DNA of 45,049 nt from a virus. Location: positions 1 through 45,049 of IMG/VR virus record IMGVR_UViG_3300027659_000061. One strand, written 5' to 3'. A program made the position numbers and the translations under genes. How positions within the stretch are numbered: the first letter of the stretch is position 1; every line of letters begins with the position of its first letter. The notes below the pieces were generated by a model. The model made no database searches. It saw only the letters and a program-made list of their open reading frames with translations, and was not told where the DNA came from. Shown in pieces: positions 7,219 through 43,638 of this stretch.

Positions 7219-7232
7219 GCTGTGGGGCTCCT

Positions 7233-7568: not shown

Positions 7569-8362
7569 TGGACGCCTTCAATGTTGTTGTTGACTGTAAG
7601 AATTATGGACGGGATGCCGGGATGCGGTGCGGCGGCAGGAAAGGCGGTAACCTCAACACTCAAGTCAGTGACCGAGAACATCAGCTCAACATAATCGTTG
7701 GCTTTGAGGTTAAAAAAGTAATTCAGCGATGAAAAAATCTCAGCATTGTTGCCTTGAATTCTTATTCTGCTGGCGCTGTTTGCCACGTCAACGCCATTTA
7801 GGCGAAACCAGAAGTCAAAAACCGCTGTGCCGCCGCTTGTTTTGTCTAGCTGAAACGAGGTGTCAAAGTTGTAGATGCCCTCGCTGTCCACAATGATGCG
7901 CGAGGTGGGTGACCCGATATACACGCCATTGCTCAGGTCGGTGCTGTTGAACGTGATCGCCGTAGCCGTGTTGATAACCGTTGCCGTTTGCGTGGTGGTG
8001 TCGTAAAACGAGCCGTATCTTGAGCGCTTGAACTCTCTGGCCGGGGGCGCCATTTGCAGCCCTTCGACCGAGGCCGTCAGGCTCCCAAGCATTGCCATCG
8101 CTTGATTGGCCTTGTTCTCGGCCAGCGCGGCATTGATGGCCGACTCTTGCGCCAGCGAGGCGATCATGGAGAGCGCCTGCACGGCAGTGGTCTGAGCAAT
8201 GCCGGCGGCGATGTTGACCTCTAGCACCCCATCAGGCCCGATGGCGTCAACGGCAGCAAACAGCAGTTCGAACTGTCTGATCTGCTGTTGGTCGGTCAAG
8301 AACTGCGCGAGCTGATCCCGCGTCAGATTGAGCTTCCGGGAGTTCGGTGCGGTGGTTGCCAT
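7565..8362 (-). CDS. Probable tail needle, gp26/Sf6-needle-like
   Basis: In P22 the gene after gp10 encodes the tail needle gp26 (233 residues), and this 265-residue protein has that place. Residues 1-115 are helical with heptad-like Leu/Ile/Ala spacing (QQIRQFELLFAAVD, then AQESAINAALAENKANQAMAMLG), as expected of a trimeric coiled coil. Residues about 125-265 form a beta-rich domain (STDLSNGVYIG, RIIVDSEGIYNFDTSFQ, YVELMFSV) resembling C1q/TNF-like jelly rolls. The Sf6 needle tip has a TNF-like knob, so the architecture fits. Needles plug the portal channel and pierce the outer membrane. The identification is inference from synteny and domain layout. Confidence 0.6.
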   Translation of the reverse strand: MATTAPNSRKLNLTRDQLAQFLTDQQQIRQFELLFAAVDAIGPDGVLEVNIAAGIAQTTAVQALSMIASLAQESAINAALAENKANQAMAMLGSLTASVEGLQMAPPAREFKRSRYGSFYDTTTQTATVINTATAITFNSTDLSNGVYIGSPTSRIIVDSEGIYNFDTSFQLDKTSGGTAVFDFWFRLNGVDVANSASRIRIQGNNAEIFSSLNYFFNLKANDYVELMFSVTDLSVEVTAFPAAAPHPGIPSIILTVNNNIEGVQ

Positions 8363-8366
8363 GTGC

Positions 8367-9881
8367 TTAGAACGCCAGTGCTTCTAGTTGGGCCTCGAGC
8401 CTGGCGAATGACACGTGGGCGCTACTGTCGCCCCGGAACCGCTGGATGCGCCAGTTGCGCATGTGACCCTGTTGGAACCACGCCAGGCGCTTCTTGGTGT
8501 TGCCTGCGGTGCCGACTGAGATGAACCTGTCCTGGCTCCACGATTTGCCGTCCAGCGAATAGCTGGTGCTGATCTGCGGGTTGCCGAGTGCCGCTGAGTT
8601 TGGGACGGCAAGCTCAAGCAGGATGTATTCGCCATTCTCTTGCAGCAAAAAGAAGCCGTTTTCTTGGAGCAATCCGCTGATAACTTGCGTCACTACAGCA
8701 ACGCTTCCGGTCAATGCCACCAGTTCTAGCTTGTTGAAGATGGCGCCGTTGCTCTCGTTGTAGACGATGAGCGTGCCGAATTCCCAGCGCACCTGCTGGC
8801 CCCAGTGGTGGCCGGTGCTTTGCACCAAATAGCCGATGGCGCTGGACTGCGGATCGCCGACCAGCCACTTGTTGTAGCACCAGACGATGTTCCTGGCCCG
8901 GTACTGCGCGATGCCGGTGGTGGTGCTGGCCAGAACAAACCAGACCTGATCTTGTAGTGCTCGCGAGGCGGATGCGTCGTAGACCAGCGTTTGATCTGGC
9001 AGATGTACGTACAGGTGCTCGTGCGCCTTGTCGTTTCTGGACTCCAGCTTCACCGTGCTCAGTTGATCTTCGGTGTACTGCAGCAGAATGTTGTCGATTT
9101 CTTGAGTGCTGACCTTTGTCGTTGTTGCCGAGACGCCAAGATAGATGCCTGGCGCCTCGTTCCGACCACCACCGAGGAATGCCATCGCATCAACAAAAAC
9201 GCAGCAGGCTTGGGTGCCGATGCAGCCCTTTTGAATCTGAGCGCCTTCAATCCTTGCGAACGGGAAAAGATCGGTGCCCACGTTGTTGAAGACCTCAATG
9301 GTGTGCCGATTGAGCGCGTAGACCTCGTTGCGAAGTTTGAGTAGCGCCACCACGGGGTCGGGGTCCGCCTCGCTTAACCCGTACTTAAATGGGTCTATGG
9401 CAAATGGATTGTTTAGCTCTGTGACGATCAGGTACTGACCATCGGTGGTCATAAAGTAGCCATCGACCCAGCAGAAGTCGATCACGAATCCAAGGTCCGG
9501 GTCTGTGACTTGCAGCAACCCGGCGGTGCTGCTCCAGTAGTACAGGCGTCCGCCGGATGCGACGGCCAGGCTGGTGAAGCTGTAGTCAAACGTCACCAAG
9601 TTGGTGGTTGGCCCGCCAACATCGCCCAGGACGGTTACAGCGCCGCTGCTTGAGACTGAGACCAGCTTGGTGCCCATGACCCGATAGCAGATGTTGTTCC
9701 ACTCAATCCCGCCACGGTCGATGCCTGGCCCTGTCCCATTGGCGACAATGCCATCGCCTGGTCGCAAGAAACCGTTGCTGATGCCGCTGACCTTTGGTAC
9801 GGGCACCAGATTGACGGGGTAGCTGGTGCGGATCTCCGGCGTGCCGTCAGTGTAAATTCCGTTCAGGATTGGAATTTGCAT
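8367..9881 (-). CDS. Packaged-DNA stabilisation protein, gp10-like
   Basis: The 504-residue product (P22 gp10 is 472) follows the pattern of the P22 gp10 hub family. It opens with a short strand (MQIPILNGIYT), the SYPVNLVPVPK segment and a GFLRPGDGI loop, then beta-propeller-like repeats and a VWFVLASTTTGIAQYRARN stretch. It would close the portal-gp4 channel after packaging and hold the needle and tailspikes. Near residues 405-425 it has two tandem LLQENG units that recur in a tiny gene at 10681-10815. The ATG lies directly against the TGA of the HNH gene (TGAATG). A second, truncated version is at 44436-45049. Confidence 0.8.
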   Translation of the reverse strand: MQIPILNGIYTDGTPEIRTSYPVNLVPVPKVSGISNGFLRPGDGIVANGTGPGIDRGGIEWNNICYRVMGTKLVSVSSSGAVTVLGDVGGPTTNLVTFDYSFTSLAVASGGRLYYWSSTAGLLQVTDPDLGFVIDFCWVDGYFMTTDGQYLIVTELNNPFAIDPFKYGLSEADPDPVVALLKLRNEVYALNRHTIEVFNNVGTDLFPFARIEGAQIQKGCIGTQACCVFVDAMAFLGGGRNEAPGIYLGVSATTTKVSTQEIDNILLQYTEDQLSTVKLESRNDKAHEHLYVHLPDQTLVYDASASRALQDQVWFVLASTTTGIAQYRARNIVWCYNKWLVGDPQSSAIGYLVQSTGHHWGQQVRWEFGTLIVYNESNGAIFNKLELVALTGSVAVVTQVISGLLQENGFFLLQENGEYILLELAVPNSAALGNPQISTSYSLDGKSWSQDRFISVGTAGNTKKRLAWFQQGHMRNWRIQRFRGDSSAHVSFARLEAQLEALAF

Positions 9882-12929: not shown

Positions 12930-14201
12930 TTATTGATTAAAAAGCAAAATTCCGCTCATTTCCGGCTGTTTGTTCACAACACCGAACAAGGTATCAAGAC
13001 GGTACTTGATGACCATGCTGTCAATGTCGTAGAACTTCTGCATCACCAGTTCAACGCCTTGGTCGGTGGTGGCACGCATCACTGCGGTGCCAGCATCGGA
13101 CGGGATGGCGTAACGGCCTGGCAGGATTTCCAACGAATCCTTTTGCCAGAACACGTTGATCGCCGAGGCACCGGTGTTGAGCCAGTTCAGAGCGGCAGCG
13201 CCGGAAGCGGCAACCAACTGAACGTTCTTGTACTGCAGTTCAGCATCGGTGGCCGGTGCGGTGGCTGCAATGATGGGAGGGCTGATGACCAGGGTCACGC
13301 CACCGGCAGGAACGCTGATGACGCGGAAGGTCTTCAGTTGGCCGGTACTCACTTTGGTGATGTGATGCACCGCGTAGATGCCGTCAATCGTGAACGCATC
13401 GCCAGCCACAACGCCGGCCGAGTTGGACACGGTGACGGTCTGGTAGCGGTTGTCCACGTTGATCTGACCGCCGACCGAGGTCGAGGTGGCTTGCGGCACG
13501 TACTGGGCCTGAGCGCCAGTGGTGTCAATCGTGGTTACTCCACCAGCCGCCACGGCAATGCGGTTTGCATAGTCGAACTTGTAGGTGTCAAAACCAGCGA
13601 CCATCCCGACCTGGTTACGCTCGTAAGCGAGGTTAGATTTCGGGTTGCCGAAGGAGCGAGTTGCCACCGCCAGGTTGCCGGCCATGCCGTTGTAGTCGCG
13701 GCTGGACAGGCCCAGGAAGCGATCGTAGTCAGGAACGCCTTGCTCGTTCATGATCGTGTCGCACAGGCTCACATCGTCATAGTCACCGGCAGCGCCAACG
13801 ATCGGAACCACCAGCGTGCCCTGAGCAGCTGCTGTGTTCATGATCGCCACGTTGATATCGCTGGCCAACTTCTGCTTCGCGGACTCGCCCAGGCGGCCCT
13901 CTTGCAGCGCATCGCGCAGGTCGAGGGTCGTCATGGTCCAAGGCACCGTTTGGCTGAAGCCAATGGTGCTGGGAACCGACAACTGGGTCATGTTCTGGTA
14001 CGTGACGGGCGTGCCGGGCGCGGAGGTTTGCGACTGGGCGATGTAGGGCATCGGGCGCCAGATGGTGTCGTTGGTGCGAGCCATCATCGTCTGGTCGGTG
14101 TTGTAGACCGAGACGTGACGCGACAGCACCAGCAAGTCCTGGAAGCCTTCAAGAATGTCTTCGAACGCTACGCGCTCTTCTTTTGAGAATGAATTGCTCA
14201 C
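12930..14201 (-). CDS. Major coat protein, P22 gp5-like
   Basis: The 423-residue product (P22 gp5 is 430) has the P22-coat order. There is an N-terminal helix (FSKEERVAFEDILEGFQDLL), an extended arm with RTNDTIWRPMPYIAQS, a TVPWTMTTLDLRDALQE segment and the long helix GESAKQKLASDINVAI. An inserted beta domain follows at about 220-320 (VTVSNSAGVVAGDAF), and the C-terminus is LDTLFGVVNKQPEMSGIL. It builds the icosahedral shell with the scaffold. The start is GTG, eleven bases after AAGGAT. It is flanked by the scaffold gene upstream and a hairpin downstream. Confidence 0.92.
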   Translation of the reverse strand: MSNSFSKEERVAFEDILEGFQDLLVLSRHVSVYNTDQTMMARTNDTIWRPMPYIAQSQTSAPGTPVTYQNMTQLSVPSTIGFSQTVPWTMTTLDLRDALQEGRLGESAKQKLASDINVAIMNTAAAQGTLVVPIVGAAGDYDDVSLCDTIMNEQGVPDYDRFLGLSSRDYNGMAGNLAVATRSFGNPKSNLAYERNQVGMVAGFDTYKFDYANRIAVAAGGVTTIDTTGAQAQYVPQATSTSVGGQINVDNRYQTVTVSNSAGVVAGDAFTIDGIYAVHHITKVSTGQLKTFRVISVPAGGVTLVISPPIIAATAPATDAELQYKNVQLVAASGAAALNWLNTGASAINVFWQKDSLEILPGRYAIPSDAGTAVMRATTDQGVELVMQKFYDIDSMVIKYRLDTLFGVVNKQPEMSGILLFNQ

Positions 14202-24522: not shown

Positions 24523-24791
24523 TGCGCCAGCATCGCCCCGATCACGTCCTAGAGCGAGCCGAGTTCTTGTCACGCGCCCGCTCGATGGCTCGCCGGGGCG
24601 TTGCCCTGACGCATAGCAAGCTCACGCCGGCGGAGGTGCAGGAGATCCGCCAGGCCAAAGAGAACCGCCTGGACCTGATGGCTCACATTTCCGAGACGTT
24701 GAGCAATTCCGCACTGGCGGAAAAGTACGGGGTGCATCCACGCACCATTGAAAAGGTGCTGTCTTATGAGACTTGGAGCCACATCAAATGA
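24522..24791 (+). CDS. HTH-like small protein
   Basis: The 89-residue product has a basic N-terminus (RQHRPDHVLERAEFLSRARS) and a C-terminal helix-turn-helix-like region, NSALAEKYGVHPRTIEKVLS. Such short proteins resemble the DNA-binding part of phage regulators or of HNH-associated NUMOD-type modules; no catalytic part is seen. It is linked by overlapping stops and starts on both sides (TAATG before, ATGA after). It may regulate the downstream nuclease and methyltransferase genes. Confidence 0.65.
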   Translation: MRQHRPDHVLERAEFLSRARSMARRGVALTHSKLTPAEVQEIRQAKENRLDLMAHISETLSNSALAEKYGVHPRTIEKVLSYETWSHIK

Positions 24792-25765
24792 GCGCAATCC
24801 CAATCCCCGACGAGGTGGCGCAAGCCATTGACGCCGCCCACGAGCGCCAGGTCGAACTACCCAGGTCGCACCTTGGCGCCAGCCAGCTTGGCCACGCCTG
24901 CGACCGGTGGCTCTGGTTGTCGTTCCGTTGGTCGGTGCGCGAGCCATTCCCGGGCCGCATCCTGCGGCTCTTTCGGCGGGGCCGGATGGAGGAGGCCACC
25001 ATAGCGGCGGACCTCAAGGCGATTGGGATTGACATTCACAGCACCGAGGGTGCCCAGGCCCGCGTCGATTTTGGCTCGCACGTCAGCGGGAGCCTGGACG
25101 GCATCATTGAATCTGGCGTCCCCGGTGCGCCGAAGGCTAGGCACATTTTCGAGGCCAAGACGCACAGCAAGAAGTCGTTTGACGATCTGGTCAAGCACGG
25201 CGTCGAGAAGTCCAAGCCGGTCCACGCCGCGCAAATGCAAACGTACATGCACGGCACGAACATCGACCGGGCGCTCTACTTTGCAGTCTGCAAAGACGAT
25301 GACCGTATCTACACCGAGCGCCTGCGGTACAGCCGCACCGAGGCCGAGCGCCTGATTGCTCGAGGCCACCGCATCGCCCTGGCGGACAGGATGCCCGAGC
25401 CGCTCTCCAGCAATCCAAGTTGGTACGAATGCAAGTTCTGCGCAGCGCATGACTTCTGCCACGGCAGCAAAAAGACCAAGGAAGTGAACTGCCGAACCTG
25501 CGCTCACAGCACGGCGGAACCCTCAACGCCGGACCAAGATGCGCACTGGACATGCGCACGATTCGACCGCAGCGTGATCCCGATTGAAACGCAGTACACC
25601 GGCTGCGGGTCGCATGTCCTGCACCCCGACCTAGTGCCGTGGCAGCGCCTGGCCGGGCCGGATGCTTGGACAGCGATCTACGTCATTGATGGGCGGGAGG
25701 TCGCTAATGGGGAGGGGGATGCTAATGTTTATGCTAGCCGGGAGTTGCTGGGGCAGGGGAATTGA
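24788..25765 (+). CDS. Cas4/RecB-like PD-(D/E)XK exonuclease
   Basis: The 325-residue product has the nuclease core GSLDG (D104) and FEAKT (E122, K124). Cys38 near the N-terminus and C215-x2-C218-x5-C224 near the end of the core have the spacing used by Cas4 and AddB nucleases to hold a 4Fe-4S cluster. A further C-terminal group (C235, C238, C256, C272) may be a zinc ribbon. With the Sak4-like ATPase and SSB it makes a recombination set in which the exonuclease produces the single strand. No cas genes or CRISPR array are present, so a link to adaptation is not suggested. The start overlaps the previous stop (ATGA). Confidence 0.85.
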   Translation: MSAIPIPDEVAQAIDAAHERQVELPRSHLGASQLGHACDRWLWLSFRWSVREPFPGRILRLFRRGRMEEATIAADLKAIGIDIHSTEGAQARVDFGSHVSGSLDGIIESGVPGAPKARHIFEAKTHSKKSFDDLVKHGVEKSKPVHAAQMQTYMHGTNIDRALYFAVCKDDDRIYTERLRYSRTEAERLIARGHRIALADRMPEPLSSNPSWYECKFCAAHDFCHGSKKTKEVNCRTCAHSTAEPSTPDQDAHWTCARFDRSVIPIETQYTGCGSHVLHPDLVPWQRLAGPDAWTAIYVIDGREVANGEGDANVYASRELLGQGN

Positions 25766-26628
25766 ATGAGCTTCATCTATTCGCTGGCGCTGGTGGAGGA
25801 ATCCTGGCCGGCCAACAACTTGGGCACCGATGCGTCTGCGCCGTTGAGTGGGAGCCTTACGCTCAAGCCGTCCTTGTGGCACGACAAAACGATGGCAGTC
25901 TCCCGCCTTTCCCGATTTGGGATGACGTGCAAACCTTTGACGGACGGCCATGGCGCGGCATTGTTGACATTGTGGCTGGCGGCTTCCCGTGCCAGGACAT
26001 ATCCGTCGCCGGCAAAGGCGCGGGCATTGATGGCGCCAAGTCAGGAATGTGGGGCCACATGGCGCGGATCATTGGCGAGGTTCGACCAAGGCACGTTTTC
26101 GTGGAGAACAGCCCAGCCCTCATTACTCGAGGACTTGGGCGAGTCCTCGGTGACCTGGCCGCGCTCGGGTATGACTGCCGGTGGACAGTGCTGGGCGCTG
26201 CCGATGTTGGGGCGCCGCATCAAAGGGACAGATTCTGGATGGTGGCCCACGCCATGCGCAACCGACAACAGCAACCGGATGCTATCGGACAACATTCACA
26301 TAAGCGCGTCAGGGCTGCCAAAGCACATTGCCCTGAACGGGGAGAAGTCTCAGATGAGGCTTTCGCAAGCGGTGCAAATGTGGCCAACGCCAATCAGTCG
26401 CGACAGCAGGACGGTGCGGGGGGGGGCAAGAATGAAGAATTCCATAGGGTCGGAGCCGCTGATAACGCAAGTGGCGGAATCGGAGCGCCGCACAGATGGC
26501 CGCCTGAACCCGATGTGGGTCGAATGGTTGATGGGGTGGCCTTTGGGATGGACCGACTTAAAGCCCTTGGCAACGGACAAGTTCCAGCCTGCGCAGCCGC
26601 CGCTTGGAGAATCCTGAATGCTCCGTGA
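25762..26628 (+). CDS. DNA cytosine-5 methyltransferase (Dcm-like)
   Basis: The 288-residue enzyme has all main C5-methyltransferase motifs: FAGAGGG (7-13), GGFPCQDIS with catalytic Cys77, ENSP (115-118), QRDRFW (154-159) and ALGNGQVP near the C-terminus. The target-recognition part (about 165-245) is short. The start is TTG, overlapping the exonuclease stop, and the end overlaps the helicase start by 11 bases. The whole length overlaps a second open frame (25766-26617). A G9 run at 26418-26426 lies within it. It would methylate phage DNA against host restriction. Confidence 0.88.
   Translation: MNELHLFAGAGGGILAGQQLGHRCVCAVEWEPYAQAVLVARQNDGSLPPFPIWDDVQTFDGRPWRGIVDIVAGGFPCQDISVAGKGAGIDGAKSGMWGHMARIIGEVRPRHVFVENSPALITRGLGRVLGDLAALGYDCRWTVLGAADVGAPHQRDRFWMVAHAMRNRQQQPDAIGQHSHKRVRAAKAHCPERGEVSDEAFASGANVANANQSRQQDGAGGGKNEEFHRVGAADNASGGIGAPHRWPPEPDVGRMVDGVAFGMDRLKALGNGQVPACAAAAWRILNAP
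25766..26617 (+). CDS. Overlapping +1-frame protein (WPTP / WVEWLMGWP type)
   Basis: This 283-residue frame lies wholly inside the Dcm gene, shifted by one base. Its ATG follows the exonuclease TGA with no gap, behind AGGGGA, and its TGA directly precedes the helicase ATG, so it fits the operon better than Dcm does. It contains WWPTPCATD, MWPTPISRDS and a C-terminal LNPMWVEWLMGWPLGWTDLK. From memory I know these motifs from phage and metagenomic proteins, often labelled methyltransferase; I cannot confirm this here. The function is unknown. It may be a dual-coded partner of Dcm or an ancient overprinted gene. High GC makes long chance frames possible, which limits confidence. Confidence 0.5.
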   Translation: MSFIYSLALVEESWPANNLGTDASAPLSGSLTLKPSLWHDKTMAVSRLSRFGMTCKPLTDGHGAALLTLWLAASRARTYPSPAKARALMAPSQECGATWRGSLARFDQGTFSWRTAQPSLLEDLGESSVTWPRSGMTAGGQCWALPMLGRRIKGTDSGWWPTPCATDNSNRMLSDNIHISASGLPKHIALNGEKSQMRLSQAVQMWPTPISRDSRTVRGGARMKNSIGSEPLITQVAESERRTDGRLNPMWVEWLMGWPLGWTDLKPLATDKFQPAQPPLGES

Positions 26629-28219
26629 CTACCAACAACGCACCATTGACCAGCTCTACGCCTGGTTCGACCGCAACAACACCGGCAACCCCTGCTTGGT
26701 GCTGCCCACCGGCTCGGGCAAGAGCCACATAATTGCGGATTTATGCAGGAAAATGTTGCAGGAGTGGCCCGAAAGTCAAATATTGATGTTGGTTCACGTC
26801 AAAGAATTACTTGAGCAGAACCTTGAGAAATTGCGCCACCACTGGCCTGACGCGCCAGTTGGCGTTTATAGCGCATCAGTTGGAAAGAAGCAATTAGGCG
26901 AACCTATTACATTTGCCGGCATTCAATCTATTAGAAATAAAGCAAAACAAATAGGTCATGTTGATATAATTTTGTGCGATGAGGCGCATGTTATATCGCA
27001 CAAGGATGAAGGTGGATACAGAAAGTTAATAGCGCAATTGTTAGAAATAAATCCAAGATTGCGCGTAATAGGTTTTACGGCTAGCCCTTACCGCCTCGGC
27101 CACGGAATGATTACCGACAAGCCCGCCATCTTCCGCGAGCTCATCGAGCCGACCAACATCCTCGAACTGGTGCGCCTCGGCCACCTGGCGCCGCTACGCT
27201 CCAAGCACACTACGGCGCAGCTGGACACCAGCGAGGTTCACAAGCGCGGCGGGGAGTTCATCGAGGCCGAACTCCAGGCCGCAGTGGACACGGAAGACCA
27301 GAACAATTCCGTTGTGCGTGAGATCATCAAGCTGGCCGGGGACCGCAAAGCGTGGCTGGCTTTCTGCTCTGGTGTCCAACATGCCTGGAACATATGCGAC
27401 AAGTTGAACGAGCTTGGCATCGTGGCGGACTGCATCACTGGCGGCACTTCAAAGAAAGAGCGCGAGCGCATCATTGGCGAATTCAAGGCAGGAAACATCC
27501 GCTGCCTGACCAACGCCAACGTCCTGACCACCGGATTTGATTACCCGGACATTGACCTGATCGCCATGTTGCGCCCCACGATGAGCCCAGGCCTTTACGT
27601 CCAGATGGCGGGCCGGGGTTTGCGACCCAAGAGCCATACCGACCATTGCCTGGTGCTCGACTTCGCCGCAGTGGTGGCCACGCACGGCCCAATCACGCAT
27701 GTCCGACCGCCGAACAAGAAGGGCGAGAAGGAAGGCGCCGCGCCGGTCAAGGTATGCGACAACTGCCAAGAGTTATGCGCCCTGGCGGCCCGTGTATGCC
27801 CTGCCTGCGGGCATCCTTTCCCGGAGCCCGAGCCCAAGAAGTTGAAGTTGCAGAACGACGACATTATGGGTTTGGCGGACAAGGAGATGGTGGTGACCGC
27901 CTGGCGCTGGCGCAGGCACGTCAGCCGCGCCAGCGGGCAAGAGATGCTGATGGTCACCTATTACGGTGCGCTCTCCGATGCGCCAGTGTCCGAATACATG
28001 CCGGTGAACAATCCCGGTTACGCGGGCGAGAAGGCACGCCAGGCCGTGGCGTCAATTGCCAGGGATGCCGACGTGCTCGTGTCAGACCTGCACAACCCGC
28101 TGGACGTGGTGGCCGATATTCTTTCCTGCGGCGAGCCGCCAGACTCAATCGAGTTCAAGATGGACGGTAAATATCATAGAGTTTTAAGGAGAAGTTGGAA
28201 TGCGACACAAACAGCCTGA
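26618..28219 (+). CDS. SF2 DEAH helicase with zinc ribbon
   Basis: The 533-residue product has the superfamily-2 motifs PTGSGKS (30-36), DEAH (121-124), GFTASP (152-157) and VQMAGRGLRP in the second RecA domain. A zinc ribbon follows, CDNCQELC and then CPACG, and a C-terminal domain of about 120 residues with the look of phage replication-repair helicases. It may assist replication restart or recombination. Its ATG stands directly after the TGA of the overlapping frame, with GGAG twelve bases upstream. Codons in 26727-27083 are sharply AT-rich compared with the rest, which suggests a recombined segment. Confidence 0.9.
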   Translation: MLRDYQQRTIDQLYAWFDRNNTGNPCLVLPTGSGKSHIIADLCRKMLQEWPESQILMLVHVKELLEQNLEKLRHHWPDAPVGVYSASVGKKQLGEPITFAGIQSIRNKAKQIGHVDIILCDEAHVISHKDEGGYRKLIAQLLEINPRLRVIGFTASPYRLGHGMITDKPAIFRELIEPTNILELVRLGHLAPLRSKHTTAQLDTSEVHKRGGEFIEAELQAAVDTEDQNNSVVREIIKLAGDRKAWLAFCSGVQHAWNICDKLNELGIVADCITGGTSKKERERIIGEFKAGNIRCLTNANVLTTGFDYPDIDLIAMLRPTMSPGLYVQMAGRGLRPKSHTDHCLVLDFAAVVATHGPITHVRPPNKKGEKEGAAPVKVCDNCQELCALAARVCPACGHPFPEPEPKKLKLQNDDIMGLADKEMVVTAWRWRRHVSRASGQEMLMVTYYGALSDAPVSEYMPVNNPGYAGEKARQAVASIARDADVLVSDLHNPLDVVADILSCGEPPDSIEFKMDGKYHRVLRRSWNATQTA

Positions 28220-34645: not shown

Positions 34646-35604
34646 GGTGTGTACCCTTGTGAATATGAGCCGTACCAGTTTGTGCCGTCAGCAACAAACG
34701 TCAGAATGTCCATCTTGCCCACGGTGGCTGTGATGGTTGGTGCGCCGGAGGCATTAAACTTCACGCCAGTGAATGTTGCCGTGGTGGCAGTGCCAGATGC
34801 TGGTTGCTTGAGCAGCAAGATGAATGACTTACCCGCTGTGGCCGTGGGCATGGTGAACGTGCATGCCGTAGCAGAAGTCAGCGTGGCAGTCAGTACAGTA
34901 CCGGCAGTGATCGCCAGGGTTGCTGAGGCTCCCACTGTGCCACTGGCTACTATGGTTTCGGTGTATGCAGATACCGTCAAAGAGCCCGTGTAGGAGATGA
35001 CCCCCGAGCTATCAATCCGCATCCGCTCAGCACTACCCGCAGCAATAATCACAGTATCGCTAAGGCCAGCAGTCCCGGCAACTGATCCTATGATTGTGTT
35101 GTTGCTGCCTGTGGTTAAGCTAGGGCCTGCGTAAGTCCCTATGGCTATATTATTTGAACCGGTATTACTATATAAGGAGTTAAGCCCAATTCCAACATTG
35201 TTATTGCCAGCAATGTTTGCTTGAAGGGAGCCACCACCAATAGCTGTATTATTTAACCCCGCAGCGTTTACAAATAATGCGTAAGATCCAACTGCTACGT
35301 TGTACCCCCCACTTAAACTACCACTAGCCAACGCCCCATTACCAACCGCAGTATTCCCAGCAACAGCATTAGCCCCCTTCCCAACGGTCAGGCCTTGGAT
35401 CACTGCGCCGCCAGTCAGTGTCGAGACGCCTGTTACACCAAGGGTTGTGGTCGAGGTGAGGCTCAACGCACTCACCGCCCGCCCAGCAGTCAGGTTGGCC
35501 ACCGAGACTTGCTTGGTGGTCGAGCTCTGGACAATCGGCAAGACCTCCGTGCCCGCTAGGGGCGTGGTACTTGCCGGGAGGGCACTGATTTTTGAGTCAG
35601 CCAT
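34642..35604 (-). CDS. Fibre-like protein with YadA-type head repeats
   Basis: The 320-residue product starts with the KISALPAST ... GTEVLPIVQSS N-terminal motif and KQVSVANLT. Residues about 75-190 carry repeats like NTAVGNGALASGS, NTAIGGGSLQAN and NIAIGTYAG. This is the trimeric-adhesin (YadA head) pattern that forms a left-handed roll. The C-terminus (about 205-320) is a beta-rich domain with FTMPTATAGKSFILLL and ILTFVADGTNWYGS. It is probably a trimeric fibre bound to the virion by its N-terminus. Its first 28 codons recur at 1-86. Confidence 0.78.
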   Translation of the reverse strand: MADSKISALPASTTPLAGTEVLPIVQSSTTKQVSVANLTAGRAVSALSLTSTTTLGVTGVSTLTGGAVIQGLTVGKGANAVAGNTAVGNGALASGSLSGGYNVAVGSYALFVNAAGLNNTAIGGGSLQANIAGNNNVGIGLNSLYSNTGSNNIAIGTYAGPSLTTGSNNTIIGSVAGTAGLSDTVIIAAGSAERMRIDSSGVISYTGSLTVSAYTETIVASGTVGASATLAITAGTVLTATLTSATACTFTMPTATAGKSFILLLKQPASGTATTATFTGVKFNASGAPTITATVGKMDILTFVADGTNWYGSYSQGYTP

Positions 35605-35645
35605 TTTGCTTGTTCCTTTGCTTTATGATACACGAACAGAGTTGA
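35519..35645. repeat. 127-bp exact direct repeat, second copy
   Basis: This segment is identical to 1-127. Here it contains the start of the complete fibre-like gene and the last 23 bases of the other tailspike's coding region, including its stop at 35625-35623. In the first copy the tailspike stops a little earlier, at 132-130. The distance between the copies gives a unit of 35518 bases. Confidence 0.95.
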
Positions 35646-38226
35646 TGCGAGCGTTGATGGCTGTCCCAGCCGTCTCTTGCAGTACAGACACTAGGCGCAA
35701 CTCAATCCGGTCTGTGGCAGCAAGTGTTGCGCCTGTGACCGTAAACACATTGTCCGTTGCTGCGTTGGTCAATGTGATGGCTGCCGACCCCAGGTTAGAC
35801 CCATGAGCGCCAGTTGAGTCGTTGATTCTGTACGCTGTGAGCGTAAGCGTTTTGGTGCCTGCTGTGCCTGCTCCGCTGTAGTAGGCATTGGCTGTAACGC
35901 TAAGGTCGCGGCCCGAAAAGTACCCGTTGCCAGGCTGATATTCCCAGATGACGGTGGATGTAATGGTGGCGCTGAGTGCGTTGGCAGCAAGCAGAAACGT
36001 TGAAGTACCCGGCGTGTTGCTGATGCCAAAAGTAGTGGCCGAAGAGCTGGCTGTAGCCACAGACCCATCGGCGTTGCGAGCCGAGGTCAGCGCCAGATTG
36101 GAGGCCGGGGAGATGCCCGATGCAACTGGCTTGATTGCCCAAGTGTCAAGCACGTAGCCGGTTGTGCCGGCATACCCATAGACCCAAACGGATACAGGCC
36201 CGTTGGGGGCGGTGAACGTTGTGCTTGAGGTAGCACTTAGAACCCAAGTCCCGGTGGTTATGGTTGTTGAGCCACCGTTGTATCCGTTGCGGATGTATAG
36301 GCCGCCAGCAGTGTTGCCGGTTGCACCAGTAGCGAAAAATGTTACCTTGTACTCGGCCCCAGGAGTAAGGCCTGGAAGGTTGATGTAAACATCAGAGTTG
36401 TTAACTGGCGATCCCGTGAGGGTGATTACGCCAGCAACCGCTGTTACCGTGCCTGTATTGCCAGTAATGAGGCCAACGTTGTCATCGTTGTAGAAGTCAT
36501 TTACAAACTTTTCTGAAACAGTGTCCATGCTGAGGAAGCCAGGAAGGACGCCTTCAAACAAGCCAACGCTGTCTAGATAGAATATTTCACCAACATCCGA
36601 CCCATCGGCAGCGCCAGCGTAGACGGTAACCGTCAGTTTTGTGTGCGTGAGAGGAATGGTGAGCGTAGAGATGACCCACTGCCATCCACCATCACACACG
36701 GCGCCACGAGGGTAGCTGGTAAAGCTAGACGAAGAGGTAACGTTATCCGTGGACGTAATGTCCAGGCGACCCCCGAGCAAGCCAAGCCCGGTCTGGGTCC
36801 AGACTCGCGCTATTGCGGTGACGGTTTTTCCCACCAAGTGTGGAAGGGCAAGGCTTGCATCGGTCGTAATGACCGGACTTGCTCCAGCGCCAATTGTGAT
36901 CTGCGCAGAGTAAAGCGACCCATCGGTTACGCTCACATTTTTTGTGGGAACGCAATTGGTAAACGTCCAGCCGGAAGGGTTGCTGCCTGTGTCCCAGGTT
37001 ATAAAACGAGGGTTGTAGATGTAATTGGTTGGCGTCTGCGACAGCGGGTTGACGCCTTGTGGGCCAAAGTTCGTGTAGCGCGGAGGCTCGGCCATGACGC
37101 GCTGGACCTCTTCGCACCAGACTTGGCTGCCCAGGGCGCTTGGGTGTGTCTCGTCTGTGTATAGCGCTGCCGGGTTTGGGTACGTCTCAAATGCGGTGTA
37201 TACATCGATGACGCCAGCACCGACCAGATCGGCAGTTTTGCGCCATGCGCTTGTGAGCCGTGCGGACTGGTTTGCTCCGGCAACGCTAGTGCGTGGGTTT
37301 TGCAGCGTAATGAACAACCCGGCAAGCGGGGCCATCAGCCTGCAATGGCTGGCGGCAATCACCCATTCTGGCAGCGCTTCCGCTTCAGTGGCGTTGGTGC
37401 CAATGTTGTGGCCGTAGTTGATGATGACCAGATCGTAATTGATCCCGGTCCAGATTAGGCTTTGCCGTCCTCCGTCCGTATAGAAGGTGTTGGTTCCGCT
37501 AACGCTGGCGTTGTCAATGAAGACTGTCTGCGCACCGCTGCCGGTGCTTATCGTAGTGTAGGCAGCCCATCCCGTAGTATCGTCATACAGGCGGTACTTG
37601 ATGGTGTGCGTGGTGAGCTCTGTGGCCAGCCATTGGGCGGTAAGGTACACCCATTCGGTGGTTTCATTTCCGGTAGAGTCGCCGGTGACAAACATGTAGA
37701 CGTTTGCTTGATTGGCGCGAGACTTCGCCCAGAAGTGCTGCGCCTGTGCCTGCGCCTGGCGTAGCTCTGCGGCCACCGTGTTCGCGGCAGAACTGTTCAG
37801 GTAATCGTACCCAACTTGTGCCGCCCCAGCGGATGAGTTTATTTCCTGCAGCTCAAAGCCTACCGTGTCAACCGGATATGTTTCTGTTGAAAAATAGGAA
37901 ACATCCCCGGCATTGATGACAAATCCATACCTTGCCGTAGATTCTGATGCGCTATATACCGCACTCCCCTTGGCGTTTTGAACCAAGATGCTGTAATCGC
38001 TGTCAACGTAAATTACTGCTGGCGTGCCTGAGTTGACAATGTAGCCGCCAGATGTGCGCAGTGGCTGCGCTGCTGTCTGCGTCAGCGCGGCGTCCCAATA
38101 GATGCTGATCGGGTTGGTCTGCGGAGCAAGATTGACCGCGCCGATCCAGATGTAGCCGTTGTCCAGCGGCTGGCCCGCCGTATCGGTGAAGATTGGGTAA
38201 GAGGGCTGGATTGAGAGTGCGGTCAT
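35623..38226 (-). CDS. Tailspike, SGNH-esterase type (variant B)
   Basis: The 867-residue product shares residues 1 to about 91 with the other spike (four substitutions seen), then differs completely. Residues about 170-380 form an SGNH/GDSL hydrolase with GDST (Ser184), GHN (Asn274) and DETHPS (Asp358, His361). Such phage spikes remove acyl groups from surface polysaccharides. Residues about 400-720 look like carbohydrate-binding jelly rolls, and the C-terminus is a beta domain ending RINSVRVS. Base composition matches the genome better than variant A does. It occupies the same locus as variant A, so the two are alternative alleles in my reading. Confidence 0.87.
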   Translation of the reverse strand: MTALSIQPSYPIFTDTAGQPLDNGYIWIGAVNLAPQTNPISIYWDAALTQTAAQPLRTSGGYIVNSGTPAVIYVDSDYSILVQNAKGSAVYSASESTARYGFVINAGDVSYFSTETYPVDTVGFELQEINSSAGAAQVGYDYLNSSAANTVAAELRQAQAQAQHFWAKSRANQANVYMFVTGDSTGNETTEWVYLTAQWLATELTTHTIKYRLYDDTTGWAAYTTISTGSGAQTVFIDNASVSGTNTFYTDGGRQSLIWTGINYDLVIINYGHNIGTNATEAEALPEWVIAASHCRLMAPLAGLFITLQNPRTSVAGANQSARLTSAWRKTADLVGAGVIDVYTAFETYPNPAALYTDETHPSALGSQVWCEEVQRVMAEPPRYTNFGPQGVNPLSQTPTNYIYNPRFITWDTGSNPSGWTFTNCVPTKNVSVTDGSLYSAQITIGAGASPVITTDASLALPHLVGKTVTAIARVWTQTGLGLLGGRLDITSTDNVTSSSSFTSYPRGAVCDGGWQWVISTLTIPLTHTKLTVTVYAGAADGSDVGEIFYLDSVGLFEGVLPGFLSMDTVSEKFVNDFYNDDNVGLITGNTGTVTAVAGVITLTGSPVNNSDVYINLPGLTPGAEYKVTFFATGATGNTAGGLYIRNGYNGGSTTITTGTWVLSATSSTTFTAPNGPVSVWVYGYAGTTGYVLDTWAIKPVASGISPASNLALTSARNADGSVATASSSATTFGISNTPGTSTFLLAANALSATITSTVIWEYQPGNGYFSGRDLSVTANAYYSGAGTAGTKTLTLTAYRINDSTGAHGSNLGSAAITLTNAATDNVFTVTGATLAATDRIELRLVSVLQETAGTAINARINSVRVS

Positions 38227-38239
38227 TTATTCAAGTTCC

Positions 38240-40213
38240 TTACGGGTTCACAATAGGCAATGCGTTGAGTGCATCATTGATTTTTGCCTTGGTCTGCCCG
38301 GCTTTTTTCATCTTGATGATCTGCACTAGGCCTGTTGCTATTGGTGCCGGCACGCCGGTAAGCATTCCAGCAAGAGCCGATTCACCCATTGCCGCCAGGA
38401 TGGTGCCCGCAGTGCCAGATGAGTTGATTAGCGTCCCAGGAGGAACCGTGTTGACATAGCGTACCACATCGTTTAGGTCTCGGACAACCTGGGCTTGCTT
38501 TTTGCCCAGCACAATGTCAAGCCTGCCATTTGCGTCAAGTGTCCTGACGGCCTGGTGCAACTTTGCCGGGGACACAATGGGCATGTCATTGGAGCCCATG
38601 CCCATGTTCTTGGTGGCCTCGTCCTTCAAGTATTTAATGGCCGCGCCTTGAAGCTCGCTCCACGCCTGGGCGCCGTTGGCCCTGATCTCTGCAGCATTCG
38701 GGGCGTTGCGCCCGCCAGTCAAGAGTGTGCGCTTTAGCCTGGTAATGTCTGCTGGCGAGCCATTGATGATCGAGGTCTGCAAAATCCTATCAGTTGCTAC
38801 CAGCGGATCGGCCATGCCAGCCCTGTTGAGCAAGAGCCGGCCAATGATTGCACGATCTTCGTATTTCTCGGATTGATTTCGGCGAAGAGCGCGGGCCTTC
38901 TTAAACATAGGGCCAGATGCTGGGTCGGTGTGGGCGTCTACCATCTTTTTGATGATGGTCTCTTCCCGAATGCCAACTGCGTCATCGTATTTAGCAAGGC
39001 CGCTCATTTCTTTGCGGAAATCCTCCAGCAAGCCAACAGTTGCAGGGCGAGCTACAAGACCGCCTTCCTCGTCCAATTGCGCAAGACCCATCTTTACAAG
39101 ATAGGATTTTGCAGCGTCTGGAACGGCCGAAGACGGAATGCCAGACACCCTAGAGTTCAAGTATCCGATCAAAGAATTCTGAATTTGATTTTCACCCGTG
39201 CCAATGGTGACTGTTTCGGTAAGGTTTACCGGGTTTGCTGCCTCTGGTGCTTTTCTGGCTGCGTTGTATGCCGTGCGTACTTGTGTTTTTGACGCATCCA
39301 GCCCTTCGTTCAGTGATTTGAGAACAGCGTTGCCGGTTGCTGTCGGCCCCATCTCGGCGGCAACTGCGCCGGTGGCGTCCACCAGTGCGTCAAAGTTTTG
39401 CAGCGCCTGCAGGTTATTTTCTTCTGCCCGCTGGCGCAACGGGGCGCCGGCCTCGGCTTTCATTTGCTCTTTTTCAAACGCCAGCTGTGTGGCCTCTCTG
39501 GCCGCTGCGCCTCTAGTCAGCGTGACAGGAACTGGCAGCCCTTCGGCGGTTGCAACGCGCTGGATCGCCGCCGGTGTTGCCGCCGCGCCAACGGATCCAG
39601 GCCGGAGTGGCGTTGATGGAGTGACTACTCCTCTGACTGCGCTGATGGCCTGCTGTACCGGCTGCACAACCCCTGTTCTTGCGGCCTGGACGGCGGCAGC
39701 GCCAGTTCTCTGAGCCGTTGCTTGCGCAATTGGTGCTGCTGCCTGCGTGGCTCGCTGCAGCATGGCCATTTGCGGAAGCATGCCGGTGAGCGGGATTGCT
39801 TCTTTCAGTACGTCACCAGTAGCCTGCACCATCTCCCGACCGGCCTGCGTCCTTGGAGCATATGTGAGCGCTTCGGCGCCTTTGGCGGCGGCCTGCTCGA
39901 CCATATTTGCGGCCTCTGGCGTGCCGAAGTTGCCAGATAGAATTTGCTGCGCAAGACCAAGTGCCGTCCCTCCGATAGCGCCAACAGTGCCGCCAATTGC
40001 GCCAGTGCCAAGTGTTGTGGCGGTCTCTAGTGCGCCGAGCGCTTTTTCAGCTATGCCAGGCGCTTCAACAGCCGTTGGGGCAGCGGGAGTTGCGGCCCTG
40101 CCCTCGTCAGACTTAGCCTGCTGATAGGCCTGCACGACGGTGTTGTAATCTGGCGTGCCTCGCTTGGAGACGTTGGAAACAATCCACGCGGCGTATTCGT
40201 CAGCGGTAGCCAT
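38240..40213 (-). CDS. Ejection protein, gp16-like position (copy B)
   Basis: This is the counterpart of 2171-4144, with the same 657 residues, the same ADEYAAWIVSNV start and the same Gly-rich hydrophobic stretch. I count roughly 20 substitutions, several in the linker at residues 42-56 (for example TATEEPG against TAVEAPG). The gene is intact and again overlaps the upstream stop by one base. The strong protein conservation despite many silent changes shows that both versions are under selection. Confidence 0.7.
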   Translation of the reverse strand: MATADEYAAWIVSNVSKRGTPDYNTVVQAYQQAKSDEGRAATPAAPTAVEAPGIAEKALGALETATTLGTGAIGGTVGAIGGTALGLAQQILSGNFGTPEAANMVEQAAAKGAEALTYAPRTQAGREMVQATGDVLKEAIPLTGMLPQMAMLQRATQAAAPIAQATAQRTGAAAVQAARTGVVQPVQQAISAVRGVVTPSTPLRPGSVGAAATPAAIQRVATAEGLPVPVTLTRGAAAREATQLAFEKEQMKAEAGAPLRQRAEENNLQALQNFDALVDATGAVAAEMGPTATGNAVLKSLNEGLDASKTQVRTAYNAARKAPEAANPVNLTETVTIGTGENQIQNSLIGYLNSRVSGIPSSAVPDAAKSYLVKMGLAQLDEEGGLVARPATVGLLEDFRKEMSGLAKYDDAVGIREETIIKKMVDAHTDPASGPMFKKARALRRNQSEKYEDRAIIGRLLLNRAGMADPLVATDRILQTSIINGSPADITRLKRTLLTGGRNAPNAAEIRANGAQAWSELQGAAIKYLKDEATKNMGMGSNDMPIVSPAKLHQAVRTLDANGRLDIVLGKKQAQVVRDLNDVVRYVNTVPPGTLINSSGTAGTILAAMGESALAGMLTGVPAPIATGLVQIIKMKKAGQTKAKINDALNALPIVNP

Positions 40214-41784
40214 TAGCTGCCCCCACGAATGATTGCATCAGCCTGGCTCCTGATGCTGGTTGTTGGGGCGGCAGCCGGCTGTCCAGCGACTGGGATTTGC
40301 CCTCTATTTGCCGCTGCAACTTCTGCCGGCGTGCCTGTTGGGATTTGAGCCTGCGGGTTTTGATACCGCTTCGCAATTTCACTTGATACGCGAACGGTGA
40401 AGTCTGCGAATGTTTCGCCGGCCTTTGCCGAAAGATCGCCAGCAATGAACGCACTTGGCGCCCTGCCGAGCGAGCCCTTGTTTTGTGACATCCAGTCAAC
40501 TTTTGCGCTTTGCACCGATGCGTCCAAGTCTTGCATTTTCGCCATGCCGCGCAAGAACGAAGATATGACCTTGGGGTCGGAGGTGTCGGACGGGAACCCG
40601 GATAGCACCATCTGAATATCTTTATCGGTTGCCGGCCCTGGCGGCAGACTCTGGACAGCCGCCGTATTGCGTAGGCGTGTAAATTCTTGGCGCAATTCAC
40701 TGACTGCGCCTTGACTGCCTGTAGATTTTTTAAGCCATTCATTGAATGAGCCCAGACTGCCCCAAGACGTGCCAATATCATTAATGCGATTGGACAGTGA
40801 ATTGAACTGCTCCGCTTGTTGCTTGGATGTGGAGGCAGCAATTGCGGCTTTGTTTATTTCAACTTTTGCGGCGTCTGGAATAGCAACAGCAAGATCGGCA
40901 ATCTTGGCAAGTGTAAGATTAACATTTGCCTGCGTAGTTGCTTGATCTAATTTAAGTTTTGCAACTCTGTCATTTATTTGAGACTGAAGATTTTTTACAT
41001 TCCAATTTTCAGTGGTTATTTTTGACTGATTGAGCTGATCTGCAAACTTTGCATTTGATGCCGCCAAAAGTGCATCTGATTTGTCTTTTGACAACTTAAA
41101 CGCTGCCAATGGCCTAGCAAATTCAGCGACAACGCCTGCGGCCAGTGCGTCCTCTTCCGCCTTTGCGGCGGCTGCTTCAGCTTCTCGTAGTTTTGCTGGC
41201 GCTTGGGCCTCCAGCCTGCCGGTAGACAATGTCCTGTCAACGTTCTCTAGAATTTCTTTGCCGCCAGGCATCATGGCCATCATGATGCCAATTGTATTTT
41301 GCGCGCCAGTTGGGTTTATGCCAATCAGCTTCAGGTATGTTTCTGTAGCCTTTGCCTTTGGCTCATTGCCACTGTTTCTGTGTGCATCAATTTGATCCTG
41401 CAGCAACTGTGCTGCAATTTCAGGTTGTCCCGCTTTGAGCGCTGAATATACTTGCCCTGCCTGTGACAATGTATTTTGATTCTGAACGGTTGTCATCTCC
41501 CCGGCAATTTTCAATATATTGTCGGCTTGATCTTTTGGCAGCAGGAAAGATGCTTGAGTAAGATCGCTGGCTGTTGCATTTTTGTCCGCAAGCAGTGCTT
41601 GGACTTTTGCTTGAGCATCCATTGCATTCTTGCGAGCCGTCTCTTTTGCTTGGGCCTCTGCTTGCTTGGCCTGCACCTCTGCACCAGCAGCACCAAGTTT
41701 GAACCCGCCCAGTGCCGCCTCAAATGGGCTCTGCACGTCTATTGCGTAATTCATCGGCGGTTGGAATGGATTGATGCCTGCCAT
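40213..41784 (-). CDS. Ejection protein, gp20-like position (copy B)
   Basis: This is the counterpart of 4144-5715, with 523 residues and no indels. The N-terminal 185 and C-terminal 200 residues are close to copy A, while residues about 190-300 differ often (for example PAKLREAEAAAAKAEEDALA against PAELDQAIAAAAKAKADALT) and keep the coiled-coil character. This points to a variable middle segment. Confidence 0.65.
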   Translation of the reverse strand: MAGINPFQPPMNYAIDVQSPFEAALGGFKLGAAGAEVQAKQAEAQAKETARKNAMDAQAKVQALLADKNATASDLTQASFLLPKDQADNILKIAGEMTTVQNQNTLSQAGQVYSALKAGQPEIAAQLLQDQIDAHRNSGNEPKAKATETYLKLIGINPTGAQNTIGIMMAMMPGGKEILENVDRTLSTGRLEAQAPAKLREAEAAAAKAEEDALAAGVVAEFARPLAAFKLSKDKSDALLAASNAKFADQLNQSKITTENWNVKNLQSQINDRVAKLKLDQATTQANVNLTLAKIADLAVAIPDAAKVEINKAAIAASTSKQQAEQFNSLSNRINDIGTSWGSLGSFNEWLKKSTGSQGAVSELRQEFTRLRNTAAVQSLPPGPATDKDIQMVLSGFPSDTSDPKVISSFLRGMAKMQDLDASVQSAKVDWMSQNKGSLGRAPSAFIAGDLSAKAGETFADFTVRVSSEIAKRYQNPQAQIPTGTPAEVAAANRGQIPVAGQPAAAPTTSIRSQADAIIRGGS

Positions 41785-41794
41785 TTTTTATCCT

Positions 41795-42439
41795 TTAGAA
41801 CCCAAAACCTGGCTTTTTGCCAGCGCCGATTTGAGCGCCGACAAACTGGCCCGGCAAGTTGAACAGTTGCCCATAGGCCTTGGCCTCGCCAAGGATACCG
41901 CCAGCCTCTGCGGAGCCTTGCTGTCCGAGCAGGTTGGCAATGTTGGTGCCAGTCTCCATGCCGGCTGCCCCAACGCCAGCGGCGGAGGCCTGGCCCAGGT
42001 TTGTCATGCCGCCGAGTCGTCCGTACTGCTGCTCAATCAGGTTGGACAGGAGTTGCGGCCTGAACTGACCTAGTGCGCCCTGCAGATTACCGCCGCGCAA
42101 CCCGCCGGTGGCCGATGCCTGCTGTAGCAGCGCGTTTTCGCCCTGCGCAGCCAGGGCCTTGAACGTCTCGCCACCGGTGAGCCTGGCAATAGCGGCCTGC
42201 TCTGCTTCCGGCCCTCTGAGGCCTAGCAATGTCTGCTGCTGCTCCAGTGCCGGAATGCCCGCCTCGGTGTACGGCTGCAGGAGTTTGCGCATCTCGTCAA
42301 ACTGGCGGCGCTGCTCCTCAATGCCCGCCTGAGATTTGGCGCCTTGAGCGGCGGCAGCGTCACCGGCTGCGCTAGCCTGCATCGAGCTACCGACCAGCTG
42401 GCTCCCCGCCACAATCATTCCGGTTACTGGATCAGGCAT
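41795..42439 (-). CDS. Ejection protein, gp7-like position (copy B)
   Basis: This is the counterpart of 5726-6370, with 214 residues. It keeps the hydrophobic start (GMIVAGSQLVGSSMQ) and the GAGKKPGFGF end. Differences are scattered and conservative. The start again lies eight bases inside the upstream gene. Confidence 0.65.
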   Translation of the reverse strand: MPDPVTGMIVAGSQLVGSSMQASAAGDAAAAQGAKSQAGIEEQRRQFDEMRKLLQPYTEAGIPALEQQQTLLGLRGPEAEQAAIARLTGGETFKALAAQGENALLQQASATGGLRGGNLQGALGQFRPQLLSNLIEQQYGRLGGMTNLGQASAAGVGAAGMETGTNIANLLGQQGSAEAGGILGEAKAYGQLFNLPGQFVGAQIGAGKKPGFGF

Positions 42440-42881
42440 TGCCGAACTCCTTCATGTAATCTTCAAATTTCTCGCCGTACAGGTTCATGACAAGATGTGC
42501 GTTTTTGGTTGCGAAGCCCGAGCCATGCGATAGCGTAACAGCCATCAGGATCAGATCATAGTACCCGGCTCGCCAGATGAAGGATTTTGCATCCGCATGC
42601 CCGCTGCGCTCGGCGCTGTCTGATGCCTGCCACTTCAGGACCGAGACCGCAAGCATTGGCACCAGGTGGTGCGAGTTGGCGGCAAAGAATTGGTTTTGCG
42701 GCATGCCTACGAAAACGTTCCAGATGGTGGCGTTCAGGTCTTTGCGCTTGACCGCATCGCCGTCTGCAATGTCATCAAAGACCTGAATGGCGTCATAGAC
42801 CATCACCAGCCACTCGATGGCTGGCTCGGGCAAAAGAAAAACCTTGCGCAGGTTTTCTATGAGCCATTCAAGGTTAGTCAC
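42432..42881 (-). CDS. Virion-block protein with DDIAD motif (copy B)
   Basis: This is the counterpart of 6363-6812. A one-base insertion just upstream opens a longer frame from a TTG at 42890, but the GTG at 42881 is the start shared by both strains and is preferred. The acidic motif is kept as DDIAD, and the WRAGYYDLIL segment is unchanged. The function is unknown. Confidence 0.68.
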   Translation of the reverse strand: MTNLEWLIENLRKVFLLPEPAIEWLVMVYDAIQVFDDIADGDAVKRKDLNATIWNVFVGMPQNQFFAANSHHLVPMLAVSVLKWQASDSAERSGHADAKSFIWRAGYYDLILMAVTLSHGSGFATKNAHLVMNLYGEKFEDYMKEFGNA

Positions 42882-42886
42882 AACGT

Positions 42887-43288
42887 TCAATCTTCCATCT
42901 CAAATTCACGCTCTTCCCAGGCCTGGCAGACGCGCAGATCGTGGCAGATGAACTCAAACTTGTTGCAGTAGCCTCGGAACCCGGCCTCGGTGTCCCAGTC
43001 GTTGCGAGGGATGCGCTCCATTTTAGCCTGCGTCATGGTGCTGTTGTCGTAGTACTCGCAGTTCGAGCACCGGCGGCGCCGAGCCTCCTTCTCGTCCACC
43101 TGCATCGCCTTGCCAACAGCGACCCAGAAGACCTTGTTGGCTGTTGGCTCGTTGGATGGGTTCTCAGGGCCAAGCATCCAGTCCTCGATGACGGTATCGG
43201 TGTTCTTCTTGTTCTCGGCTGTAGTGATGAACTCCTCGCCCATCGGCAGGCCTGCGAAGCCCTGGGGGATGACCATAAATTCCTTCAT
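42887..43288 (-). CDS. Cysteine-cluster protein (copy B)
   Basis: This is the counterpart of 6817-7218, with 133 residues from MKEFMVIPQGF. All five cysteines of the C-terminal group are kept, with few changes around them (DTEAGFRGYC against DTGAGFRGYC). The ribosome site is slightly changed to CTGAAGGAGCCC but remains good. Confidence 0.72.
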   Translation of the reverse strand: MKEFMVIPQGFAGLPMGEEFITTAENKKNTDTVIEDWMLGPENPSNEPTANKVFWVAVGKAMQVDEKEARRRRCSNCEYYDNSTMTQAKMERIPRNDWDTEAGFRGYCNKFEFICHDLRVCQAWEEREFEMED

Positions 43289-43302
43289 GCTGTTGGGCTC
43301 CT

Positions 43303-43638
43303 TCAGGTAATTTCGCGGCCTGACACGCGCAGCGTGAGCGCCGTGGCGTTGCTGGCAATCGTGCTGATAAATGCACCGGCGTCGAGCTCTTGGCCGACCA
43401 GCTCTGGGCACAGGTAGGTCTCGCCTGGCACCACGGCTCGGTCATCAATAATCAGGTTGGCATTGCCTGCGCTGCCGCCGGACTGCACCAGATTGACGCT
43501 AAATGTTCGGTTCGCCGTGTCGGTGTTGGTCACCGTGGCCTTGTCGATCAGCGCCTTGACAGAGTTTGCCGTGTACTGCGTTGTTTGCAAGGCCTCCATC
43601 TGCTTGGGGGCCACTAGGGTTTTGACAATTACGGTCAT
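43303..43638 (-). CDS. Small beta-rich structural protein (copy B)
   Basis: This is the counterpart of 7233-7568, with 111 residues and only a few substitutions (for example NTDTANRTF against NTDTVNRTF). It overlaps the needle-like gene by four bases in the same way. Confidence 0.7.
   Translation of the reverse strand: MTVIVKTLVAPKQMEALQTTQYTANSVKALIDKATVTNTDTANRTFSVNLVQSGGSAGNANLIIDDRAVVPGETYLCPELVGQELDAGAFISTIASNATALTLRVSGREIT

Follow-up and report, generated by a model that had tools for sequence, protein, structure and literature searches.

The window analysed here, a stretch of 45,049 nucleotides corresponding to positions 1 to 45,049 of the IMG/VR virus record IMGVR_UViG_3300027659_000061, contains two long reading frames on the plus strand that share almost all of their bases. 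The first of them, the putative alpha subunit gene (frame 0, 25762..26628), extends from a TTG start to a stop codon at 26626-26628 and encodes 288 aa with the large domain of a Dcm-type C5-methyltransferase. The second, the putative beta subunit gene (frame +1, 25766..26617), begins with ATG, ends with TGA at 26615-26617 and encodes 283 aa. Both frames are open as the initial annotation had described, and the boundaries are as tight as it had claimed, since the beta ATG at 25766 lies immediately 3' of a TGA at 25763-25765 and the beta TGA abuts the ATG at 26618 of the next gene. The upstream neighbour is a Cas4-domain exonuclease gene (24773..25765, plus strand; phrog_1990, 3.4e-93) whose stop overlaps the alpha start, and the downstream neighbour, starting directly after the beta stop, encodes a DNA helicase (26618..28219, plus strand; phrog_16, 9.4e-96). 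An Rfam search of the window gave no match, and no restriction enzyme gene was seen adjoining the alpha/beta locus.

The alpha TTG at 25762 and the beta ATG at 25766 are 4 nt apart, and the purine-rich stretch preceding them (GGGGCAGGGGAA, 25750..25761, plus strand) might function as a shared ribosome-binding site for both, a clean AGGAGG being absent from it. An alpha NTG start and a beta ATG separated by the same 4 nt were found in 96 of 125 unique loci. Several other loci show an AAGGAG just 5' of the beta ATG together with an alpha start 9-18 nt upstream, and in a further group the beta ATG is located 5 nt upstream of an alpha ATG; the paired starts were retained across the start arrangements inspected.

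Profile searches matched alpha to PF00145 (E 3.6e-33) and to phrog_363 (E 1.6e-70), and the motifs characteristic of the C5-cytosine DNA methyltransferases of PF00145 are found along the chain, all on the plus strand. These comprise motif I (LHLFAGAGGG, 25771..25800), with F7, G9, G11 and G12 invariant in the alpha alignment; motif IV with its PCQ and catalytic Cys (GGFPCQDIS, 25978..26004), with G73, G74, F75, P76 and C77 invariant in 68 rows; motif VI of the ENx type (ENSP, 26104..26115; E115 and N116 invariant); motif VIII (GAPHQRDRFWMVA, 26209..26247; H153, R155 and R157 invariant); and motif X (LKALGNGQVPACAAAAW, including GNGQVP, 26557..26607), where G270, N271, Q273 and V274 are invariant and a confident helix was modelled. 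In 194 unique loci alpha has no motif IX. The initial annotation had credited this frame with every C5-methyltransferase motif to its very end, which has to be corrected: I-VIII and X are present, IX is missing and an IX-like block stands in the +1 frame.

The AlphaFold2 model of alpha, built like the beta model from alignments in which rows from named phage records were left out, was confident at residues 1-167 and 270-288 and had a pLDDT below 50 at residues 168-269. Foldseek placed M.HhaI at the top of its matches, and alpha resembles M.HhaI by sequence as well as by fold. What was modelled from alpha alone is a large domain without the target-recognition domain (TRD). The segment between motifs VIII and X (26263..26496, plus strand) is an open linker, unconstrained in sequence according to the dN/dS of codons 166-240 and probably disordered, and its bases are those of the constrained variable region of beta. 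With no motif IX, and with neither constraint nor a confident model between VIII and X, alpha does not unite motif IX and a TRD on one chain.

Beta belongs to phrog_1008 according to profile search (E 3.3e-24), a family matched by 10 of 10 diverse phage betas, and had no match in Pfam, NCBIfam or PDB sequences. It contains two WPTP repeats, one at residues 160-163 (26243..26254, plus strand) overlapping the VAHA codons of alpha, with T162 and P163 invariant in 11 diverse betas, and another at residues 206-209 (26381..26392, plus strand), with T208 and P209 at least 90% conserved in the beta alignment; LNPMWVEWLMGWPLGWTDLK is found near the C-terminus. The WPTP region is a putative target-recognition region. 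A likeness between the WPTPTASD repeats and the TL consensus P[STCA]PT[ILV][TASV] of C5-methyltransferase TRDs (PMC2413257) offers a lead. The last 40 residues read as motif IX (GRLNPMWVEWLMGWPLGWTDL; LNPMWVEWLMGWPLGWT; 26498..26560, plus strand), the same DNA being motif X in the alpha frame, and the WVEWLMGWP block is, as had been observed initially, the +1 reading of the segment that ends in GNGQVP. In the motif survey, 194 unique loci show this division, motif IX being confined to beta and motif X to alpha, and the assignment of IX agrees with its mapping in single-chain relatives (see below). In 8 loci, including Streptomyces phages, both IX and X are located on the +1 protein, as in the actinophage relatives Samy (L164), Euratis (L169) and L170. 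The structural model of beta was poor (pLDDT 57, best at residues 101-110, 131-150 and 251-260), and a fold search with this poor model gave no significant match to any solved structure. A model of such quality could be expected for a domain that depends on its partner, yet it provides no evidence for such dependence.

A search of viral and genome sets with the 283-aa frame, as had been proposed, located beta relatives in phage, bacterial and archaeal genomes, hundreds of loci in all, and every one examined lies on Dcm DNA. In IMG/VR, the search with beta yielded 578 relatives, with Dcm in the same DNA at 79 of the 79 loci kept. A search with alpha alone, in which beta was not required, recovered 80 close relatives, and all 80 carry beta relatives in +1 phase, the beta frames being open end to end in nearly every case. 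Scanning of GTDB genomes together with a further viral scan provided 96 distant loci; at 86 of them beta is in +1 phase and the overlap exceeds 300 nt. The hosts and bins concerned comprise Pseudomonadota, Bacillota, Actinomycetota, Myxococcota, Planctomycetota, Verrucomicrobiota, Chloroflexota, Nitrospirota, Patescibacteria and two archaeal bins, several of them metagenome bins whose assignments are loose and may reflect phage contigs. In twenty-one named records, too, the alpha match and the beta match occupy adjacent frames of a shared stretch of DNA; these records include phages of Acinetobacter, Pseudomonas, Salmonella, Vibrio, Stenotrophomonas, Paenibacillus, Lacticaseibacillus, Mycobacterium, Streptomyces, Microbacterium and Synechococcus, as well as E. 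coli prophages, a Leptospira plasmid and others.

In 10 of the 96 distant loci both parts lie in one frame and form single-chain enzymes. In these the alpha HMM covers motifs I-VIII, the beta HMM the TRD and motif IX, and the alpha HMM again motif X, in that order within one ORF; in the relative L174 the three parts span residues 106-274, 336-478 and 486-510, and in L179 the PF00145 match spans residues 30-370, including IX and X. In an unrooted alpha tree the single-chain forms and most of the forms resembling M.AquI fall in one mostly actinobacterial clade, with several changes between arrangements.

These relatives bear on the proposal that beta is a separate protein, such as a regulator or an anti-restriction protein, whose gene simply shares its DNA with a complete Dcm gene. 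That beta is under selection (see below) and forms a family of its own, phrog_1008, would fit such a protein. A complete Dcm is however not what alpha appears to be, as it lacks motif IX and a constrained TRD; the second half of beta is in frame with Dcm in the single-chain enzymes; and beta was found without alpha in none of the 96 distant loci and in none of the 21 named records inspected. We regard a separate protein as very unlikely, and the notion of a free-standing +1 family, which had been drawn from free-standing phage proteins labelled methyltransferase, found no support, Dcm lying in the same DNA at 96 of 96 distant loci and in 21 of 21 named records. Entries in which beta seems to stand free turned out to be choices of annotation, since only beta is annotated in PP083311, whereas both frames are annotated in Paenibacillus phages. 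In the former, a Pseudomonas phage record (L161:1501-2229), beta is listed as a hypothetical protein, and the unannotated alpha frame is 76% identical to that of the window over 167 residues. In Paenibacillus larvae phage records both frames carry the label methyltransferase, and no comment on the overlap was found there. At another locus, L269:3001-3762 (E. coli PCP07014), RefSeq describes a pseudogene with an internal stop, and alpha and beta are broken at nearly the same place.

For the window gene taken alone, the absence of stops in the +1 frame is modest evidence. When the codons of one frame were shuffled among synonymous positions and stops counted in the other, +1 remained stop-free in 1.6% of the shuffles (P ~0.016), with 2.7 stops expected; in the window's remaining long genes the +1 frame is interrupted by 6-28 stops. 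The depletion became far stronger across 123 loci. Frequent stops in the +1 frame among close Dcm relatives had been named as an argument against the proposal; opposite motifs I-VIII, 1 beta stop was seen versus 413 expected; the variable region had 8 versus 128 and the motif IX part 3 versus 131. In the opposite direction, with beta codons shuffled, no alpha stop was seen in the linker versus 394 expected.

Substitutions were analysed in 25 independent close pairs, each possible and each observed change being classed as synonymous or not in either frame by means of a counting script of our own, in the style of published overlapping-gene tests and with a transition bias that was assumed; as the control, flanking genes were processed by that script. 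The dN/dS of beta was 0.46 (0.37-0.55) in the alpha-nonsynonymous class and 0.16 (0.11-0.22) in the alpha-synonymous class, versus 1.07 (0.85-1.30) and 0.89 (0.69-1.15) for the +1 frame of the flanking genes in the same pairs, these intervals being approximate, as the pairs stem from 14 clusters. Purifying selection was thus detected in each of the two frames and not in the +1 frame of the non-overlapping controls. Together with the stop depletion, this supports the proposal, made from the window alone, that both frames are coding. Conservation of Dcm, together with codon usage and high G+C, might also leave a +1 frame open as a by-product, and the P value for the window alone is not tiny; against this stand the flanking-gene controls, the synonymous shuffles and the same open +1 frame in relatives at 42-50% G+C, several of the 21 named records being at 42-44%, and the chance of such a by-product is practically negligible.

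Selection is distributed unevenly along the gene, in the manner of a relay: it acts mainly on alpha in I-VIII, only on beta in the variable region that follows VIII, and on both at the end. In codons 3-165, which encode motifs I-VIII, alpha had a dN/dS of 0.18. Because one of the two beta ratios equals 1.0 in this part, the constraint on beta opposite I-VIII is weak or partly resolved; what indicates it is the depletion of stops, a lower divergence at 4-fold sites (0.139 versus 0.252 in controls) and the conservative nature in beta of changes silent in alpha, with a mean BLOSUM score of -0.84 (expected -1.49), versus -1.20 (expected -1.37) in controls. In codons 166-240, alpha was neutral (1.41 and 0.82) and beta constrained (0.28 and 0.16), and 61% of the changes fell at alpha codon position 1, which is position 3 in beta. 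In the last ~44 codons (241-284), encoding IX and X, both beta (0.23 and 0.16) and alpha (0.21 and 0.15) were constrained.

Taken together, the data suggest that a single phage m5C DNA methyltransferase is specified by this locus and synthesised as two polypeptides that share their DNA, a reading to which we assign a probability of about 0.82. It is the most likely one because motif IX is in beta, motif X is in alpha, and single-chain relatives arrange the parts as alpha I-VIII, beta TRD and IX, and alpha X. Moreover, the border between the frames coincides with the border between the large and small domains of C5-methyltransferases as stated in PMC3404938. Alpha would provide the large AdoMet-binding catalytic domain, with motifs I-VIII, the linker and the motif X helix. 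Beta would provide the small domain, with the variable target-recognition region of the WPTP repeats and motif IX, preceded by ~150 N-terminal residues overprinted on I-VIII. Translation would begin at TTG 25762 for alpha and at ATG 25766 for beta, with one ribosome-binding site probably serving both, and the two chains, produced together, may assemble into a heterodimer. We infer that both chains would be needed for catalysis and that the heterodimer would methylate phage DNA, most likely in order to evade host restriction.

A single chain could also arise from the same DNA by programmed frameshifting, with I-VIII translated in frame 0, a +1 shift for the TRD and IX, and a shift back for X. 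The frame under selection switches likewise along the gene, and the single-chain relatives show the same order of parts. Such a mechanism requires however two shifts per chain, and it requires neither an open beta frame opposite I-VIII nor an open alpha linker, the two regions with 1 stop seen of 413 expected and none of 394. It also leaves without need a beta ATG near the alpha start, with an AAGGAG of its own in some loci. We therefore give frameshifting a slim chance.

As to the origin of a two-chain enzyme, we rather favour mutual overprinting within one enzyme's gene, each frame being ancestral in part and newborn elsewhere. In alpha, I-VIII and X would be the ancestral parts and the linker the newborn one; in beta, the TRD and IX would be ancestral, and the ~150-residue domain opposite I-VIII newborn. 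The arrangement would be old, with a range that takes in the phages and prophages of many phyla. The initial annotation had suggested that a whole protein family arose by overprinting of Dcm, which fits the first half of the phrog_1008 family, overprinted on I-VIII, but not its C-terminus, which is the methyltransferase's own motif IX part.

Long same-strand overlaps in prokaryotes are rare and difficult to prove. The small-chain gene of M.EcoHK31I, encoding 176 aa, lies inside the large-chain gene in another frame. A two-polypeptide m5C methyltransferase is a known kind of enzyme, of which M.EcoHK31I (YGGCCR) and M.AquI (CYCGRG; alpha and beta subunits) are examples. In the former the large chain carries I-VIII, X and a predicted TRD, and the small chain motif IX; in the latter the natural split falls between motifs VIII and IX, with IX and X on the small chain (PMC3404938). 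Compared by description, M.EcoHK31I resembles the window in having I-VIII and X on the large chain and IX on the small one. It differs in its predicted TRD on the large chain, codons 166-240 of the window being neutral in alpha and constrained in beta, and in its small chain, as beta starts at the alpha start and spans nearly the whole gene (283 versus 288 codons). M.AquI is likewise a split m5C methyltransferase, but has X on its small chain, an arrangement seen not in the window but in the 8 relatives with IX and X on the +1 protein. Another phage methylase gene, that of ShiLan, also contains an out-of-frame second protein, a hidden HNH (PMC11855218); there it is a homing-endonuclease insertion, whereas the alpha/beta locus has no insertion and the second frame would be part of the enzyme. 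The locus had been put forward as the best candidate for something undescribed, which the published two-polypeptide enzymes with IX on the small chain contradict in part. Double coding from start to end, a variable region on the small chain, the relay of selection between the frames, the evidence for selection on each of them, and the breadth of the distribution appear to be new as far as the literature searched shows. PHROG 363 (alpha) and PHROG 1008 (beta) are both labelled DNA methyltransferase and kept as unrelated entries, and in that literature we found no statement identifying them as alternative readings of one DNA sequence.

The alpha/beta overlap is strongly supportable from sequence alone and recurs at hundreds of loci. 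Its logic would be that the frame switch tracks the domain border of the enzyme, the two frames holding two domains that must meet. PHROG 363 and PHROG 1008 would then be one system, a natural and widespread set of split m5C methyltransferases, and half of the enzyme would be missing from public annotations in which just one of the frames is retained; an assay of alpha by itself for methyltransferase activity may turn out falsely negative. If mutual overprinting is true, these loci would rank among the largest collections of prokaryotic genes that overlap on the same strand over their full length.

Other long overlaps were noticed among the records examined. The longest was that of phage C75C1 (L280:1-1440, 43% G+C), where the 479-codon alpha frame is overlapped by an open +1 frame of 460 codons that matches beta. 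A prophage of E. coli PT62 (L268:43-1029) encodes a second, divergent cytosine methyltransferase with an open +1 frame of ~300 codons containing WPTP and an LNP...LMG block. Elsewhere in the window, a 523-aa gene at 4144-5715 (minus strand) and its ~92% identical copy at 40213-41784 (minus strand) both have a stop-free +1 run of 213 codons, and a 423-aa ORF at 12930-14201 (minus strand) occupies almost the same bases as a 417-aa ORF on the opposite strand (12933-14186, plus). The contig ends repeat each other over 7.1 kb (1882-8980 and 37951-45049, 91.9% identity), and an exact 127-base repeat is present at 1-127 and 35519-35645, with different large ORFs between these repeats, encoding 675 aa at 130-2157 and an 867-aa tail fiber at 35623-38226. 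The pattern suggests either an assembly that, having gone once round a circular genome of ~35.5 kb, continued into a strain variant, or a real duplication with tail-fiber exchange.
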